From Deltaproteobacteria bacterium RBG_13_61_14 (GTDB lineage: Bacteria; RBG-13-61-14): 23,435 nucleotides of DNA. The translations under genes and the position numbers were made by a program. The notes beneath the pieces are model-generated. The model was not told the origin of the DNA and did not search any database. It saw nothing but the letters and a program-made list of their open reading frames with translations. The stretch spans positions 1,565 through 24,999 of the forward strand of contig MGQK01000036.1 of NCBI GenBank assembly GCA_001797815.1. Reading direction: 5' to 3'. Positions 1 to 20,066 of this stretch are shown here, piece by piece (position 1 is the first letter of the stretch; every line of letters begins with the position of its first letter).

Positions 1-755
1 AGCGGTGATCCCGAGGAATTGTATCTTCGGGCGTAGATGTCAAAGTCCAGGAAGCCGTTCCGCGTATCATCCCAAACAATAATGAAGTTGCCATTGGGGT
101 CGACGGCAAGGGCGGGGTTGCTGGCGTCCGTGGACCCTGGATCCTGGTCCACTCGGAACTCATTCCCCAGTGGATTCCCGTCCGCGTCGTAGTGCCGGGC
201 AAAAATATCCGAGTCCTGGATCTCCTCAATAAAATGTGTATCCCAGGTGATGATGAAATGGTTGTTGGCATCCACCGCGACGGCTACTCTCTGCGAGGAA
301 AAATTGAAGGAATTCTGATCCACCCGGTACTCGTTGCCTAGGGGAGTCCCATTCGCGTCATACCGCCGGGCAAAAATGTTGCCGCCGCCGTCAAGCCTGG
401 TATCGCTCCAGGCGATGATAAAATTACCGTTAGCGCCCGCCGCCACCCCAGCCCTGTTCGAAGATCCCGGATCGGGTTTCTGGTCCACTCGGAAATCGTT
501 CCCCAGTGGATTGCCCAGGGTATCATATCGCCGGGCATAGATATCTGAGCTCGAGAGCCGCCGCCCGTCGGTCCAGACCACAAAGAACACATCGTTCGCG
601 TCCACAACCACGGAAGGGTAACGGGCCCCCCCCGTCCCGGGGTCCTGATCCACCCGGAAGTCCGGAACAAGAAGTTCCAAGGCTTGGGCTGGAGGAACAA
701 CCACGATGGACCAAGCCATCATTAACGTTGCTAAAAGCTTTTCTCTCGTGCTCAT
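1..755 (-). CDS. Secreted repeat protein, 5' part only (runs off the window start)
   Basis: This reading frame starts with ATG at 755 on the minus strand and stays open for 251 codons to the window edge, so the C-terminus is missing. A strong Shine-Dalgarno (GGAGGAGG, about 763-770) lies upstream. Residues 1-25 look like a Sec signal peptide (basic start, then LLATLMMAWSIVVV, ending PAQA). The rest is a tandem repeat of roughly 50 residues, with four units visible. Each unit has the pattern NGNFIIVWDD, then DIYARRYD, then G-x-PLGNEFRVDQ. Repeats of this kind occur in bacterial surface or extracellular proteins and may form beta-propeller or beta-sandwich blades; that fold is inference. No catalytic motif is visible. 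The gene has its own promoter-like sequence and a long structured leader. I do not recognise a specific function. Confidence 0.85.
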   Translation of the reverse strand, partial: MSTREKLLATLMMAWSIVVVPPAQALELLVPDFRVDQDPGTGGARYPSVVVDANDVFFVVWTDGRRLSSSDIYARRYDTLGNPLGNDFRVDQKPDPGSSNRAGVAAGANGNFIIAWSDTRLDGGGNIFARRYDANGTPLGNEYRVDQNSFNFSSQRVAVAVDANNHFIITWDTHFIEEIQDSDIFARHYDADGNPLGNEFRVDQDPGSTDASNPALAVDPNGNFIIVWDDTRNGFLDFDIYARRYNSSGSP

Positions 756-776
756 GCCCAATCCTCCTCCTGAATT

Positions 777-814
777 AAAAAAGCCGCACTTGGGCCCTTT
801 GGCCATGGCGGCTT
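777..814 (-). terminator. Terminator-like hairpin in the leader of the repeat-protein gene
   Basis: On the minus strand, AAGCCGC (814-808) pairs with GCGGCTT (787-781). An inner GGCC/GGCC stem (804-801 with 796-793) closes the loop, and a run of T residues follows. It sits after the predicted promoter and just before the Shine-Dalgarno. It therefore looks like an intrinsic terminator that could act as an attenuator or riboswitch expression platform rather than as the end of another gene. Confidence 0.6.
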
Positions 815-815
815 G

Positions 816-936
816 ATTGGTAGCGGATCCTGGGATCCTGATTTAGAGACGGCGGCCTCTCCATTGCCGTGCTCTTTTCTGCCCTTTTCTTGGACAGGGC
901 GTGAGGGCCTGGTTAAGATTCTGGTAGATTTCCTTA
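816..936 (-). ncRNA. Candidate structured 5' leader (riboswitch/attenuator-like), class unassigned
   Basis: Upstream of the terminator hairpin, the predicted 5' UTR holds three further stems. GCCC/GGGC lies at 881-900. A 9-bp stem with one bulged base lies at 845-875 (AGAG-C-ACGGC pairing with GCCGT-CTCT). GGATC/GATCC lies at 825-838. A leader of about 180 nt with four successive hairpins, the last terminator-like, is the layout of a cis-regulatory RNA. I cannot match it confidently to a known class. Parts faintly recall c-di-GMP-I RNAs, but the conserved core of that class is not evident. Confidence 0.4.
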
Positions 937-942
937 GCGCCG

Positions 943-971
943 ATTAAGGCATAATTGCGAGGGCTTGTCAA
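943..971 (-). promoter_or_regulatory. Candidate sigma-70 promoter for the repeat-protein gene
   Basis: On the minus strand TTGACA (971-966) is followed after 17 nt by CTTAAT (948-943). The -35 box is perfect and the -10 box is moderate. Transcription would begin near 936, giving a leader of about 180 nt before the ATG at 755. Confidence 0.45.
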
Positions 972-7486: not shown

Positions 7487-9037
7487 ATGAAAAAAATCAC
7501 TCAAATTACGGGTCTGTGCGGGTTGGTGATCGCGGCCCTGGGCATCTTTGCCCGCATGATCCAGGGCCAAGGGTCGTTGCTCGTCACCTTGCACCTGGTT
7601 CTGGGCGGGCTCTTGCTTTTAATCGGGATCTTGACCAACCTGGCCGAGATCCGGGAATTCTTGGCCAAACGGGGCGCCCGGTATGGCACGGGCGCGGCGA
7701 TCCAGATGATCCTCTGGATCGTGGTCTTGGGCATGATCAACTACCTGGCCGTGACCCACGACTGGGTGCAGGACCTGACCAAGAACCGCCTCTATACCCT
7801 GAGCGGACAGACCTTGCAAGTTCTGAACAATTTACCCGGGCCGGTGGAGGCGACGGCCTTTTTCCAGAGCGACACCTTGGCGGACGTGCGGCGCCGGCTG
7901 AACCTGTATACGGCGGCGGCGCCCCGGTTCCACCTCGAGTTTGTGGACCCGGACAAGCATCCGGAGCTTGCCGAAAAGAAAGCGATCTCGGCCTACGGCA
8001 CCCTGCTCTTCGAGTATGGAGGCAAGAGCATTCGCATCACCCAGCATGAGGAGATGGATATCACCAATGCTTTGATCAAGGCGACCCGGTCGGAAGAGAA
8101 GGTCATCTATTTCCTCTCCGGACATGAAGAAGCCGATCCCGGAAACGATGACAAGGCGGGACTGTCCATCTTGCGCGGAGCCCTGGCCAACCAAAATTAC
8201 CAGGTCCGGGGTATCTTTCTGACCGGGACCGCGGTTCCCGAGGACGCTTCGATGGTCATCATCGCCGGTCCGCGCATCCCTCTCGCCGAGGTGGAGATTC
8301 AGGCCCTGAACAACTACCTGGACCGGGGAGGCAACTTGATGGTGTTGCTCGATCCGGGCTATGCCACCAACCTGGAACCTTTGCTGGCGCAATACGGGAT
8401 CTCCGCGGATGATGATGTGATCATTGACCCGGTGCATCACCTGTCCAGCAAGGACCCGTTCGGCCTTTCCCCGATCTGCAGTGATTTTGAGCAACACCCG
8501 GTTACGAGCAACCTTCCGGGCAAGCTCCTGGTCTTTCCCCGGTCGCGCTCGTTAACCCTGAATAAGGATCCTGCTCGCAAGATTCGTCCCATGCCCCTGG
8601 TCCGGACCAGTTCCGACAGTTATGGGGAAACCAACCGCTCCCTGCTGCGGGAGCGCGGGATCGCGCGCAAGGATCCGGAAGACCTTCCCGGCCCCCTGGC
8701 GGTCGCGGGAGTAGCCGGCCGGAAGATTGACTTGCCGCCCTGGGAACAACAAAAGAAACAGCGGAGCGAGTTGCAAACCCGCCTGCTCGTCGTCGGCAAT
8801 TCCCGGTTTCTGCGCAACGGAGAACTGCCCACCTACTCCAACTTCCTTTTCGCCCTCAATGGCATCAACTGGTTGGCGGGCGAAGAAGACCTGGTCTTTT
8901 TACCCGGTTTCAAGCGCGGGGGCAACCGGATTTATCTGTCCACCCCGCAAAAAGAGGGCATTTTCTATGCCACGGTCTTGATTCTGCCGGAACTGCTGAT
9001 GATCCTGGGCGTGGCCATCTGGTGGAGAAGGCGATGA
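7487..9037 (+). CDS. GldG-like ABC transporter auxiliary protein
   Basis: A 516-residue protein of the uncharacterised ABC auxiliary family that includes GldG. It has three membrane segments near the N-terminus (about 10-28, 33-50 and 68-86). A large periplasmic domain follows, with KNRLYTLSGQTLQVLNNL and FLSGHEEADPG resembling the GldG sugar-binding-like/beta-alpha fold. A C-terminal membrane helix ends WWRRR. This topology (N-terminal TMs, soluble domain, C-terminal TM) is typical. It begins 54 nt after the permease and has a weak Shine-Dalgarno. Its role is probably to complete the exporter or bind its substrate at the membrane face; this is inferred from the family. Confidence 0.9.
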   Translation: MKKITQITGLCGLVIAALGIFARMIQGQGSLLVTLHLVLGGLLLLIGILTNLAEIREFLAKRGARYGTGAAIQMILWIVVLGMINYLAVTHDWVQDLTKNRLYTLSGQTLQVLNNLPGPVEATAFFQSDTLADVRRRLNLYTAAAPRFHLEFVDPDKHPELAEKKAISAYGTLLFEYGGKSIRITQHEEMDITNALIKATRSEEKVIYFLSGHEEADPGNDDKAGLSILRGALANQNYQVRGIFLTGTAVPEDASMVIIAGPRIPLAEVEIQALNNYLDRGGNLMVLLDPGYATNLEPLLAQYGISADDDVIIDPVHHLSSKDPFGLSPICSDFEQHPVTSNLPGKLLVFPRSRSLTLNKDPARKIRPMPLVRTSSDSYGETNRSLLRERGIARKDPEDLPGPLAVAGVAGRKIDLPPWEQQKKQRSELQTRLLVVGNSRFLRNGELPTYSNFLFALNGINWLAGEEDLVFLPGFKRGGNRIYLSTPQKEGIFYATVLILPELLMILGVAIWWRRR

Positions 9038-10458
9038 GGCACGGCCAACGGGTCTCCATGATTCTCTTGGGCCTGGCCCTTTTCATCGGATCCCTGATTT
9101 GGCTTTCGCAGCGGAAACCTCCGGCGCCGGCCCGACCCGATCAAGGGCCGCAGCCCCTGATCCCATGGCCGCGGCAGGTGGTGAGCCTGCGCTTGGAAAA
9201 TGAGAAGGGACAGTTCCGGTTTGTTCGCGGGAAAGATGAGAATGAGTGGCAATTGGTGGAACCCGCGCCGACCCAGATGGATCCGATCTATGCCAGCATC
9301 ATGTGTGGCCACTTCCTGGGCCTGAAAAAGGAGCGGATCGTGGGCCAGGGCGACCAGGACCTCGAAAAGTTCGGGCTCCACCAGCCGCCGGGCCGGGGGA
9401 CCTATTTTTTCCGGGGGGACCAGCCGGAGCTCTTGCTCGAACTCGGCAAGATAACCCCGATCCAGAAAAACCTCTACGCCCGGGTGGTCGGCCGGCCGGA
9501 AATTTTTTTAGTGGATCGAATCGTTTATCAATACCTGGATCGGGACCTGGATAGCTTCCGCCTGCGCAAGTTGACCTTGACCCAGCCCCAGGAGCTCACC
9601 AGCGTGGATATCCAGTATTTGGATTCCCGGGCGCAGCCATGGTTTCCCCTCGGCGGCTCGAGCCGGTTTATCTCCCAAGTCAGTCCCACGGGAACTAAAT
9701 GGATCATGTTGGAACCTTTCCAGGAGACCGTGGATACCAACACGATTTACAAATTTGTGCAAAGCCTGGGAAACCTGGCGGTGCGGAGCCAGGAAATCCC
9801 GAGCGATGCCGGCTCCCGGTTCGGCCTCGACCGACCGGTGCTGGGGGTCGCCCTTGAACACAAAGACCACAACTTGGAGCGGTTGCTCTTCAGCCGGCCT
9901 CAGCCGGAGAAGCCCGTGTTTTATGCCCGCAACAGCTCATGGAATCTGGTCTTCGAGATTCCCCTCGCCAATATGGCCGCGACCTTCAATCAAGATTTCC
10001 GGCGAGTGTTCCTGCTGGATCCCGACAGCCAGGACCTCATGACCAAGATAGCGGTAACCTTTCCGTCCCACCCGGAGTGGAACTATACACTGGTTCAAGC
10101 AACCCTGGCGACCTGGATTTTGGAAGATGAGCCCAACCGGCCGCTGCATCCCTTTGCCCTCTCGTGGGTGATCTCCCCCCTGAGCGAGGTCCCGCTCCAA
10201 AGCTATTATGTTTATGATCGGAAGGAGAGTTCGGCTCGCTTCGGCCTCGAATCCCCGCGAGCCGTGATCCAGCTTTACAATGGCGCGGTTCCAATCGGCA
10301 AGCTCGTCATCGGCGCCGCCACTTCCAAGCCGAACGGATGTTATGTGCTCGACCGCCAGCGGGATGCCCGGTTTTGGGTATCCAATGATCTTTATGAAAA
10401 AATCCCTCACCAGCGCAAAGTGTTTTACCTTCAGGAGACCGAAAAAGCGGCTCCGTAA
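9034..10458 (+). CDS. DUF4340-type membrane-anchored protein
   Basis: A 474-residue protein with an N-terminal membrane anchor (about residues 7-25) and a long extracytoplasmic region. The repeated architecture shows motifs such as QFRFVRGKDENEWQLVEP and DLEKFGLHQP, then a second related half (RFGLDRPVLGVALEH, RFGLESPRAVIQLYNG). This matches proteins annotated DUF4340, which regularly follow GldG-like genes. I chose ATG 9034 because it overlaps the upstream stop as ATGA and has GGAG 6 nt upstream; a GTG at 9022 is possible. It is presumably a periplasmic partner of the exporter. The C-terminus ends in a charged tail without a second membrane helix. Confidence 0.9.
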   Translation: MRHGQRVSMILLGLALFIGSLIWLSQRKPPAPARPDQGPQPLIPWPRQVVSLRLENEKGQFRFVRGKDENEWQLVEPAPTQMDPIYASIMCGHFLGLKKERIVGQGDQDLEKFGLHQPPGRGTYFFRGDQPELLLELGKITPIQKNLYARVVGRPEIFLVDRIVYQYLDRDLDSFRLRKLTLTQPQELTSVDIQYLDSRAQPWFPLGGSSRFISQVSPTGTKWIMLEPFQETVDTNTIYKFVQSLGNLAVRSQEIPSDAGSRFGLDRPVLGVALEHKDHNLERLLFSRPQPEKPVFYARNSSWNLVFEIPLANMAATFNQDFRRVFLLDPDSQDLMTKIAVTFPSHPEWNYTLVQATLATWILEDEPNRPLHPFALSWVISPLSEVPLQSYYVYDRKESSARFGLESPRAVIQLYNGAVPIGKLVIGAATSKPNGCYVLDRQRDARFWVSNDLYEKIPHQRKVFYLQETEKAAP

Positions 10459-13615: not shown

Positions 13616-13828
13616 ATGAAAACAGAACGAGCCACGGCAGAAGTTTTTTTCACGGCCTTCAAAGCGCTCAGTCCTGCCGAACGGGAAGCCTTTATCGGGA
13701 AAGTGGTGGGCGACCCTCGTCTCCGGGAAGACCTCCTGGACCTGGCCTTGATTGAAGAAGCCAAGCAAAGCCGAGGCAAATCCGTTTCCGCCAAAGATTA
13801 TTTTGCCCGGCGCCGGAGGGAAGGTTGA
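13616..13828 (+). CDS. Putative antitoxin of a RelBE/ParDE-type pair
   Basis: A 70-residue protein with ATG at 13616 and GGGAGGCG upstream. Residues 15-45 (ALSPAEREAFIGKVVGDPRL, then REDLLDLALI) are helical and resemble short antitoxins found before RelE-type toxins. The basic C-terminus (YFARRRREG) may bind the toxin. It overlaps the toxin gene as TTGA, so production is coupled. Assignment as antitoxin depends mainly on the partner gene. Confidence 0.75.
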   Translation: MKTERATAEVFFTAFKALSPAEREAFIGKVVGDPRLREDLLDLALIEEAKQSRGKSVSAKDYFARRRREG

Positions 13829-14082
13829 ACTACGAGGTCGAGCTGGCCCCTCCAGCGCAAAAAGACCTTGACGCATTCCGGGGCAAGCTCCTGGCAAAAT
13901 TTGAAACCCTGATCCTGGCTTTATCCGACAATCCCCGACCGCGCCATTCCAAGAAGCTGAGCGGCGGCGGGTCTAACTGGCGGATCCGCAGCGGCGCTTA
14001 CCGAATCCTTTATGAAATTGACGAAAAGAGAAAGACGGTCCGGGTTTATCGGATTGCCCATCGCAAAGATGTTTACAAGTAA
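13825..14082 (+). CDS. RelE/ParE-family toxin
   Basis: An 85-residue protein beginning with TTG at 13825, overlapping the antitoxin stop and preceded by GGAGGGAAGG. The pattern AQKDLDAFRGKLLAKFETLI, then LSGGGSNWRIRSGAYRILYE, then VRVYRIAHRKDVYK is the full RelE fold signature, including the typical final HRKDVY. Such toxins cleave mRNA at the ribosome (RelE) or target gyrase (ParE); RelE is more likely from this signature but the target cannot be proven here. Confidence 0.88.
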   Translation: MNYEVELAPPAQKDLDAFRGKLLAKFETLILALSDNPRPRHSKKLSGGGSNWRIRSGAYRILYEIDEKRKTVRVYRIAHRKDVYK

Positions 14083-19542: not shown

Positions 19543-19779
19543 ATGCCCGCTAAGAATCCACGTTTAAGCTCGGTGGTGGAAAAGCCGCTTTACCAATGGC
19601 TGAAGCAGTCGGCGGAACGCGAGGGGACTTCGCTCTCCACCCGGGTCCGGGATCTACTCCGGATCGCGCGGGAGTTGGAAGAAGATGCCTTCTGGACCGA
19701 GGCAGGTGAAAAGCGGCTGCGGACGTTCCGCCGGCGAACCGCGGTCGAGCATGACCAAGCCTGGGGCAGAAAAAAGTGA
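19543..19779 (+). CDS. Putative ribbon-helix-helix antitoxin
   Basis: A 78-residue protein with GAGGAGG upstream. Residues 5-42 (PRLSSVVEKPLYQWLKQSAE then REGTSLSTRVRDLLRIAREL) follow the Arc/MetJ strand-helix-helix pattern of DNA-binding antitoxins. The C-terminal half is charged and ends RRTAVEHDQAWGRKK, probably the toxin-binding part. It overlaps the toxin start as GTGA. Confidence 0.8.
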   Translation: MPAKNPRLSSVVEKPLYQWLKQSAEREGTSLSTRVRDLLRIARELEEDAFWTEAGEKRLRTFRRRTAVEHDQAWGRKK

Positions 19780-20066
19780 TCGCTTTTGCGCTCCGCTATC
19801 ACCCGGAGGTAGTGGAGCGGGATATCCCGGCGCTGGACCCCGCCATCCGCAAGCGAATTCGACGCGCCCTGGAACTCCGGCTCGTCACCCACCCGGAAAA
19901 ATACGGAAAGCCCTTGCGCCAATCCCTGAGCGGGCTGCGGAAATTGCGCGTGGGCGACTGGCGGGTGATTTATTTGATTCGCGGAACCGAAGTTTGGATT
20001 CTCCGGATCGGCCACCGGCGAGAAGTCTATCAGGAAGCTTCCCGTCCAATCCCGGAGGAGAGCTAA
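19776..20066 (+). CDS. RelE-family toxin
   Basis: A 96-residue protein starting at GTG 19776, overlapping the antitoxin stop. The core motifs LRYHPEVVERDIPALDPAIR, then LSGLRKLRVGDWRVIYLI and LRIGHRREVYQE match the RelE/ParE superfamily; the final HRREVY is typical of RelE-like mRNA interferases. It converges with mtnA, whose stop is 11 bp away. It is not closely similar to the toxin at 13825, so the two loci are probably independent acquisitions. Confidence 0.88.
   Translation: MIAFALRYHPEVVERDIPALDPAIRKRIRRALELRLVTHPEKYGKPLRQSLSGLRKLRVGDWRVIYLIRGTEVWILRIGHRREVYQEASRPIPEES

Follow-up and report, generated by a model that had tools for sequence, protein, structure and literature searches.

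The window, that is, the whole stretch of 23,435 nucleotides that was analysed, carries on the minus strand the 5' part of a gene of at least 773 codons that runs off the contig. The gene is preceded by a long non-coding leader, the upstream neighbour of which is a DnaK gene in divergent orientation. The leader and its gene comprise the following features.

966-971, minus strand: -35 hexamer TTGACA, read in the sequence and invariant in seven type-A copies of the leader
943-948, minus strand: -10 hexamer CTTAAT, with a 17-nt spacer to the -35; TATATA or TTAAAT stands in the same place in the other copies
777-912, minus strand: conserved leader core through the terminator, with 81-94% identity among five full copies and flanks near background
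879-900, minus strand: first hairpin, GCCCTGTCCAAGAAAAGGGCAG (given as 881-900 in the preliminary description), with a nearly invariant A-rich loop
845-875, minus strand: second predicted stem, with mismatches in three of five copies; RNAalifold favours an alternative long-range pairing
825-838, minus strand: third hairpin, GGATC-CCAG-GATCC, present in all copies
777-814, minus strand: intrinsic terminator AAGCCGC...GCGGC TTTTTT, with its stem at 781-814 and six T at 782-777
763-770, minus strand: Shine-Dalgarno GGAGGAGG, read in the sequence
1-755, minus strand: 5' part of the downstream gene, encoding a signal peptide (MSTREKLLATLMMAWSIVVVPPAQA), repeats, and TSP3_bac motifs

Elsewhere in the window, two gene pairs on the plus strand (13616-14082 and 19543-20066) look by eye like RelBE-type toxin-antitoxin pairs.

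The promoter named in the preliminary description, TTGACA-17-CTTAAT on the minus strand, is indeed read at 971-943. Its -35 hexamer is perfect; its -10 hexamer matches at four of six positions and is devoid of the conserved A2, and therefore went unlisted by a stricter promoter scanner. Transcription is predicted to start at ~936, which would yield an RNA of ~160 nt through the terminator and a leader of ~180 nt up to the ATG at 755, in agreement with the length of ~180 nt first proposed. The T tract (782-777) lies directly before the Shine-Dalgarno (770-763), as had also been described, and only 21 nt separate it from the ATG. This gap is too short for a second promoter between the terminator and the ATG, and, together with the divergent orientation of the DnaK gene, it indicates that the terminator belongs to the leader transcript and cannot end an upstream gene. 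As predicted from these elements, the anatomy is that of an attenuator leader, with a promoter, a non-coding leader, a terminator ahead of the ribosome-binding site, and no intervening promoter.

Eight places in the genome, including the window, match this leader, the seven others matching from the promoter to the terminator or over part of it; two of these seven together make up the interrupted C31 copy. The 202-bp type-A unit is found as five full copies (C36, which is the window, C96, C49, C82, and C124), while the C31 copy is split by a 124-nt insertion with pairing arms and the C22 copy comprises the 5' half only. The copies at C49, C82, and C22 reach contig ends. The insertion between the two C31 halves (L019) exhibits long pairing arms, TTGAAACACAGAG ... 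CTCTGTGTTTCA, and a similar sequence follows the point at which the C22 copy breaks off. From CCAGGCCCTCA through the T tract, identity among the five full copies amounts to 81-94%, as compared with 9-42% in the 100 nt that precede the promoter and 18-62% in the first 60 nt past the terminator, where C49, C82, and C31 have some 5' UTR in common; random 60-mers average 27%. This repetition is the decisive evidence, and it confirms that the window leader is more than a chance arrangement. The stretch from -35 to -10 is 55-72% identical in pairs whose core is 86-94% identical, and falls as low as 55% where the core stands at 94%; in two pairs, C36-C96 and C49-C82, the promoter is also alike, at 90-100%. 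Since the promoter spacer of a fresh passive cassette would not diverge more quickly than the transcribed part, the comparison of copies suggests that constraint acts on the leader RNA itself rather than that the unit is passively copied; gene conversion within the one genome may be an alternative cause of the similarity. In several copies, the ATGGAG frame of the leader stays open across the terminator, and it even continues into two genes in frame. Changes over its codon positions number 12/11/7 and the window copy is frame-shifted, which rules out a coding leader or a leader-peptide attenuator.

The four stems previously proposed lie where they were placed, both in the sequence and in the predicted fold, but that at 845-875, being mismatched in three of the five full copies, represents no conserved structure as drawn. 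Across the five copies, 93% of the cells of the proposed structure pair and most pairs are invariant; the first hairpin (879-900) reaches 96.7% of cells paired, with one-sided changes only. The window terminator, formed by AAGCCGCCATGGCCAAAGGGCCCAAGTGCGGC followed by six T, has a predicted energy of -17.8 kcal/mol (-14 to -23 in the copies), its inner stem being mismatched in two of the five copies, and the same terminator type is found at C31, C35, C42, C49, C82, and C96. The window leader folds with z = -1.98, 7-8 of 200 dinucleotide shuffles folding equally well, and the other copies with z of -1.5 to -2.9. By itself, such folding energy is modest, indeed weak, evidence, much of the z being due to the terminator. 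RNAalifold prefers to pair GGCCCUC with GAGAGGCC, which leaves the fold upstream of the terminator unsettled. No pair is altered on both sides, either in the RNAalifold structure or in the one first drawn, among the five copies with their 88% mean column identity; as covariation is hardly to be expected among copies this similar, this counts only weakly against the proposed RNA element. Complementarity between the leader and the 5' arm of the terminator is no better than in shuffled leaders, so that no switching (antiterminator) helix is visible.

The type-A copies with a visible downstream gene all share its orientation, and the product is in every case an exported or membrane protein. At C96, the ATG of an exported LVIVD-repeat/TSP3 protein is found 76 nt past the terminator, and at C31 an exported protein of the same repeat type, with a MopE metal-binding motif, starts 71 nt past it. 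At C124, a membrane sulfatase gene follows ~181 nt past the leader, with a possible TTGAAA-17-TACATT promoter in between. The downstream proteins are alike only as repeat families. Where 180 nt or more of upstream space is available, terminators precede 9 of 60 exported versus 13 of 205 other genes (p = 0.058; 0.91 Mb of the genome, chosen partly around known copies, with crude gene calling), a weak enrichment that no more than suggests a general rule of terminators before exported genes.

Sibling leaders extend this set. C106 also carries the motif CAGGCCCTCANGCC, and C46 a form of it with one mismatch; these two type-B copies are 94% identical from the promoter to the T tract, where the similarity ends. 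The C106 leader lies ~13 nt before the gene of an exported HEAT-like protein, and the C46 leader precedes that of a membrane-anchored protein. Type C is a single copy at C35 (CACTCAAGCC AAGAAA GGC), located before the gene of an exported TSP3/MopE-like protein. Both types possess CTCANGCC at a distance from TTGACA similar to that in type A. The pattern TTGACA-N58-88-CTCANGCC occurs 12 times, versus once for the reversed control, and 8 of the 12 occurrences belong to type-A, type-B, or type-C leaders (the interrupted C31 copy being counted once); as the pattern was designed on these types, the count attests to their coherence and is not an independent discovery. A core-motif match at C79 was discarded as a leader, being located inside coding-like sequence. 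Directly upstream of the second type-B copy (L226:12512-13177, C46) is a REP-associated (RAYT-like) transposase gene, identified by reading the sequence, and REP-like palindromic repeats (GCGGCTGAGGCTTTCGGCCGTGAGCTC...) are common to positions 1205-1300 of the window and to the C46 locus, just past the type-B terminator (L226). Two further units were observed. One, at L163:2926-3144 (C42), again consists of promoter, leader, and terminator, the terminator being of the same type and the leader a different one; its gene cannot be seen because it adjoins a masked N stretch. The other, on the minus strand of L227 (C41) near 8984-9173, is a long leader that has TTGACA and a terminator of the sequence AGCCAAC...GTTGGCTTTTTT and lies before the gene of an exported protein; no similarity between it and types B and C was detected.

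Neither at gathering nor at relaxed thresholds did Rfam 15 yield a credible family match for the window leader, its copies, or its siblings, in keeping with the preliminary description, which had placed the leader in no known class. Its suggestion of a c-di-GMP-type RNA finds no support, the best match of the c-di-GMP-I riboswitch model RF01051 in the genome (E 4.4) being below the cut-off and none passing genome-wide. A DNA search of 98 genomes gave two outside matches of 24-32 nt (L010 and L011), both due to chance. The collection contains three genomes of the phylum, and a covariance-model search found no leader in the other two. The covariance model built from the copies reported no outside match at E 0.001 in 385 other genomes, the best hit (E 0.07) being weak and in coding-like sequence. 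A loop-based pattern scan, which demands an exact loop match and could thus let diverged homologues escape, reported 59 matches in genome contigs (257 Gb) and 14 in viral contigs, all attributed to chance by the model. The exact core pattern was absent from viral contigs, and a distant search of plasmids returned no match. The leader is best read as a putative lineage-restricted, unclassified family, with all of its copies from one genome. A CsrA target (GGA motifs) and an ANTAR target (hexaloop) were considered by eye and rejected, the motifs being not enriched or unfitting.

We favour, with a probability of roughly 0.58, a cis-acting transcription-attenuation leader that is reused before exported-protein genes. 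RNA polymerase would start near 936 and make a conserved non-coding RNA of ~160 nt, and would by default halt at the intrinsic terminator that immediately precedes the ribosome-binding site. Some signal or factor recognising the core (CAGGCCCUCACGCC...AAGAAAAGGGCAGAAAAGAG...) would then lead to read-through, and the exported-protein gene would be expressed. One leader at several loci, with its siblings of types B and C elsewhere, would define a small regulon of exported proteins, several of which appear to carry Ca/metal-binding-type repeats. Both the conditional nature of termination and the sensing role of the leader core are inferred; conditional termination is the best-supported option because the leader promoter is the only one near the gene and the terminator lies in between. 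The riboswitch or attenuator layout initially claimed thus holds for the attenuator-type leader, which is real as a layout and recurs before other exported-protein genes; a riboswitch is no more than a putative reading, as neither covariation nor a conserved aptamer fold was found and no antiterminator helix rises above shuffles. It is a speculative and rather improbable proposal that sibling types with a CUCANGCC core make up a new riboswitch-type class, by means of which a bacterium from a very small phylum would sense one signal, perhaps a metal or a second messenger, and would respond by antitermination of exported Ca/Cu-binding-type repeat proteins.

Each unit might instead be a full gene of a small trans-acting RNA family, with its own promoter and terminator, the downstream genes being mostly incidental or expressed by read-through. 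The homology does run from promoter to terminator and end there, no antiterminator helix was found, and at C124 the next gene is 181 nt away with the possible TTGAAA-17-TACATT promoter in between. This explanation is nonetheless unlikely, given that the gap from terminator to start codon measures 21 nt in the window and ~13 nt in the C106 type-B leader, with no room for a promoter, and that all visible downstream genes are co-oriented and encode exported or membrane proteins. We hold it to be quite unlikely that the unit is a passive dispersed repeat, or a 5' cassette (promoter and 5' UTR) recombining between related exported-protein genes, the RNA of which plays no regulatory role. Uneven divergence (55-72% from -35 to -10 versus 86-94% in the core) argues against it, as do downstream proteins with repeat-type similarity only and the presence of the leader before a sulfatase gene, whereas the ribosome-binding-site and signal-peptide sequence that paralogous exported genes also have in common, the several copies at contig ends, the interruption of C31, and the truncation of C22 would all fit.

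Two explanations appeal to known regulators. In LoaP antitermination, the factor works by way of a hairpin in the leader, with an intrinsic terminator downstream (PMC12691694), the same layout as here, and the genome encodes a second NusG-domain protein (C53:72287-72547, L247; E 8e-8), so that a specialised NusG paralog of the LoaP/UpxY/RfaH kind might be envisaged as bringing about processive antitermination after recruitment by leader RNA or DNA. This mechanism is very improbable: the paralog adjoins a nucleotide-sugar dehydratase-like gene, probably in a polysaccharide locus, at a great distance from all leader copies, no UNCG hairpin of the dfn kind was noticed among the predicted hairpins, and no ops element is seen in the leader. 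That the leader belongs, in diverged form, to an established riboswitch class, for instance c-di-GMP-I (GEMM), is scarcely credible in view of the Rfam results reported above, even though c-di-GMP riboswitches can control surface proteins, as PMC4933901 describes for Bc2, located upstream of a collagen adhesion protein gene.

If the attenuation reading holds, a poorly sampled lineage would control a set of exported proteins via one reused RNA element that is absent from Rfam, and the natural copies, which differ in core, terminator, and insertions, would provide a ready test set for the signal sensed by the leader. If the unit is merely an sRNA or a copied cassette, the leader remains an unannotated multicopy transcript.

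Among known systems, the c-di-GMP-I riboswitch (GEMM, RF01051) resembles the attenuation leader in that it can control surface proteins via a terminator, but the sequence and fold of the present leader do not match its model. The LoaP/dfn system (PMC12691694) likewise places an intrinsic terminator between a leader RNA element and the start codon; it differs in its UNCG hairpin, its NusG paralog, and its long biosynthesis operons, whereas exported-protein genes follow the present leader, in which no such hairpin is seen. Orphan riboswitch and structured-leader candidates identified by scanning genomes (for example, PMC8632094, PMC11109978, PMC7266159) usually rest on cross-species comparison, while the present leader comes from a single genome and is devoid of covariation, but they have in common with it a conserved non-coding leader and an intrinsic terminator that recur before functionally related genes.
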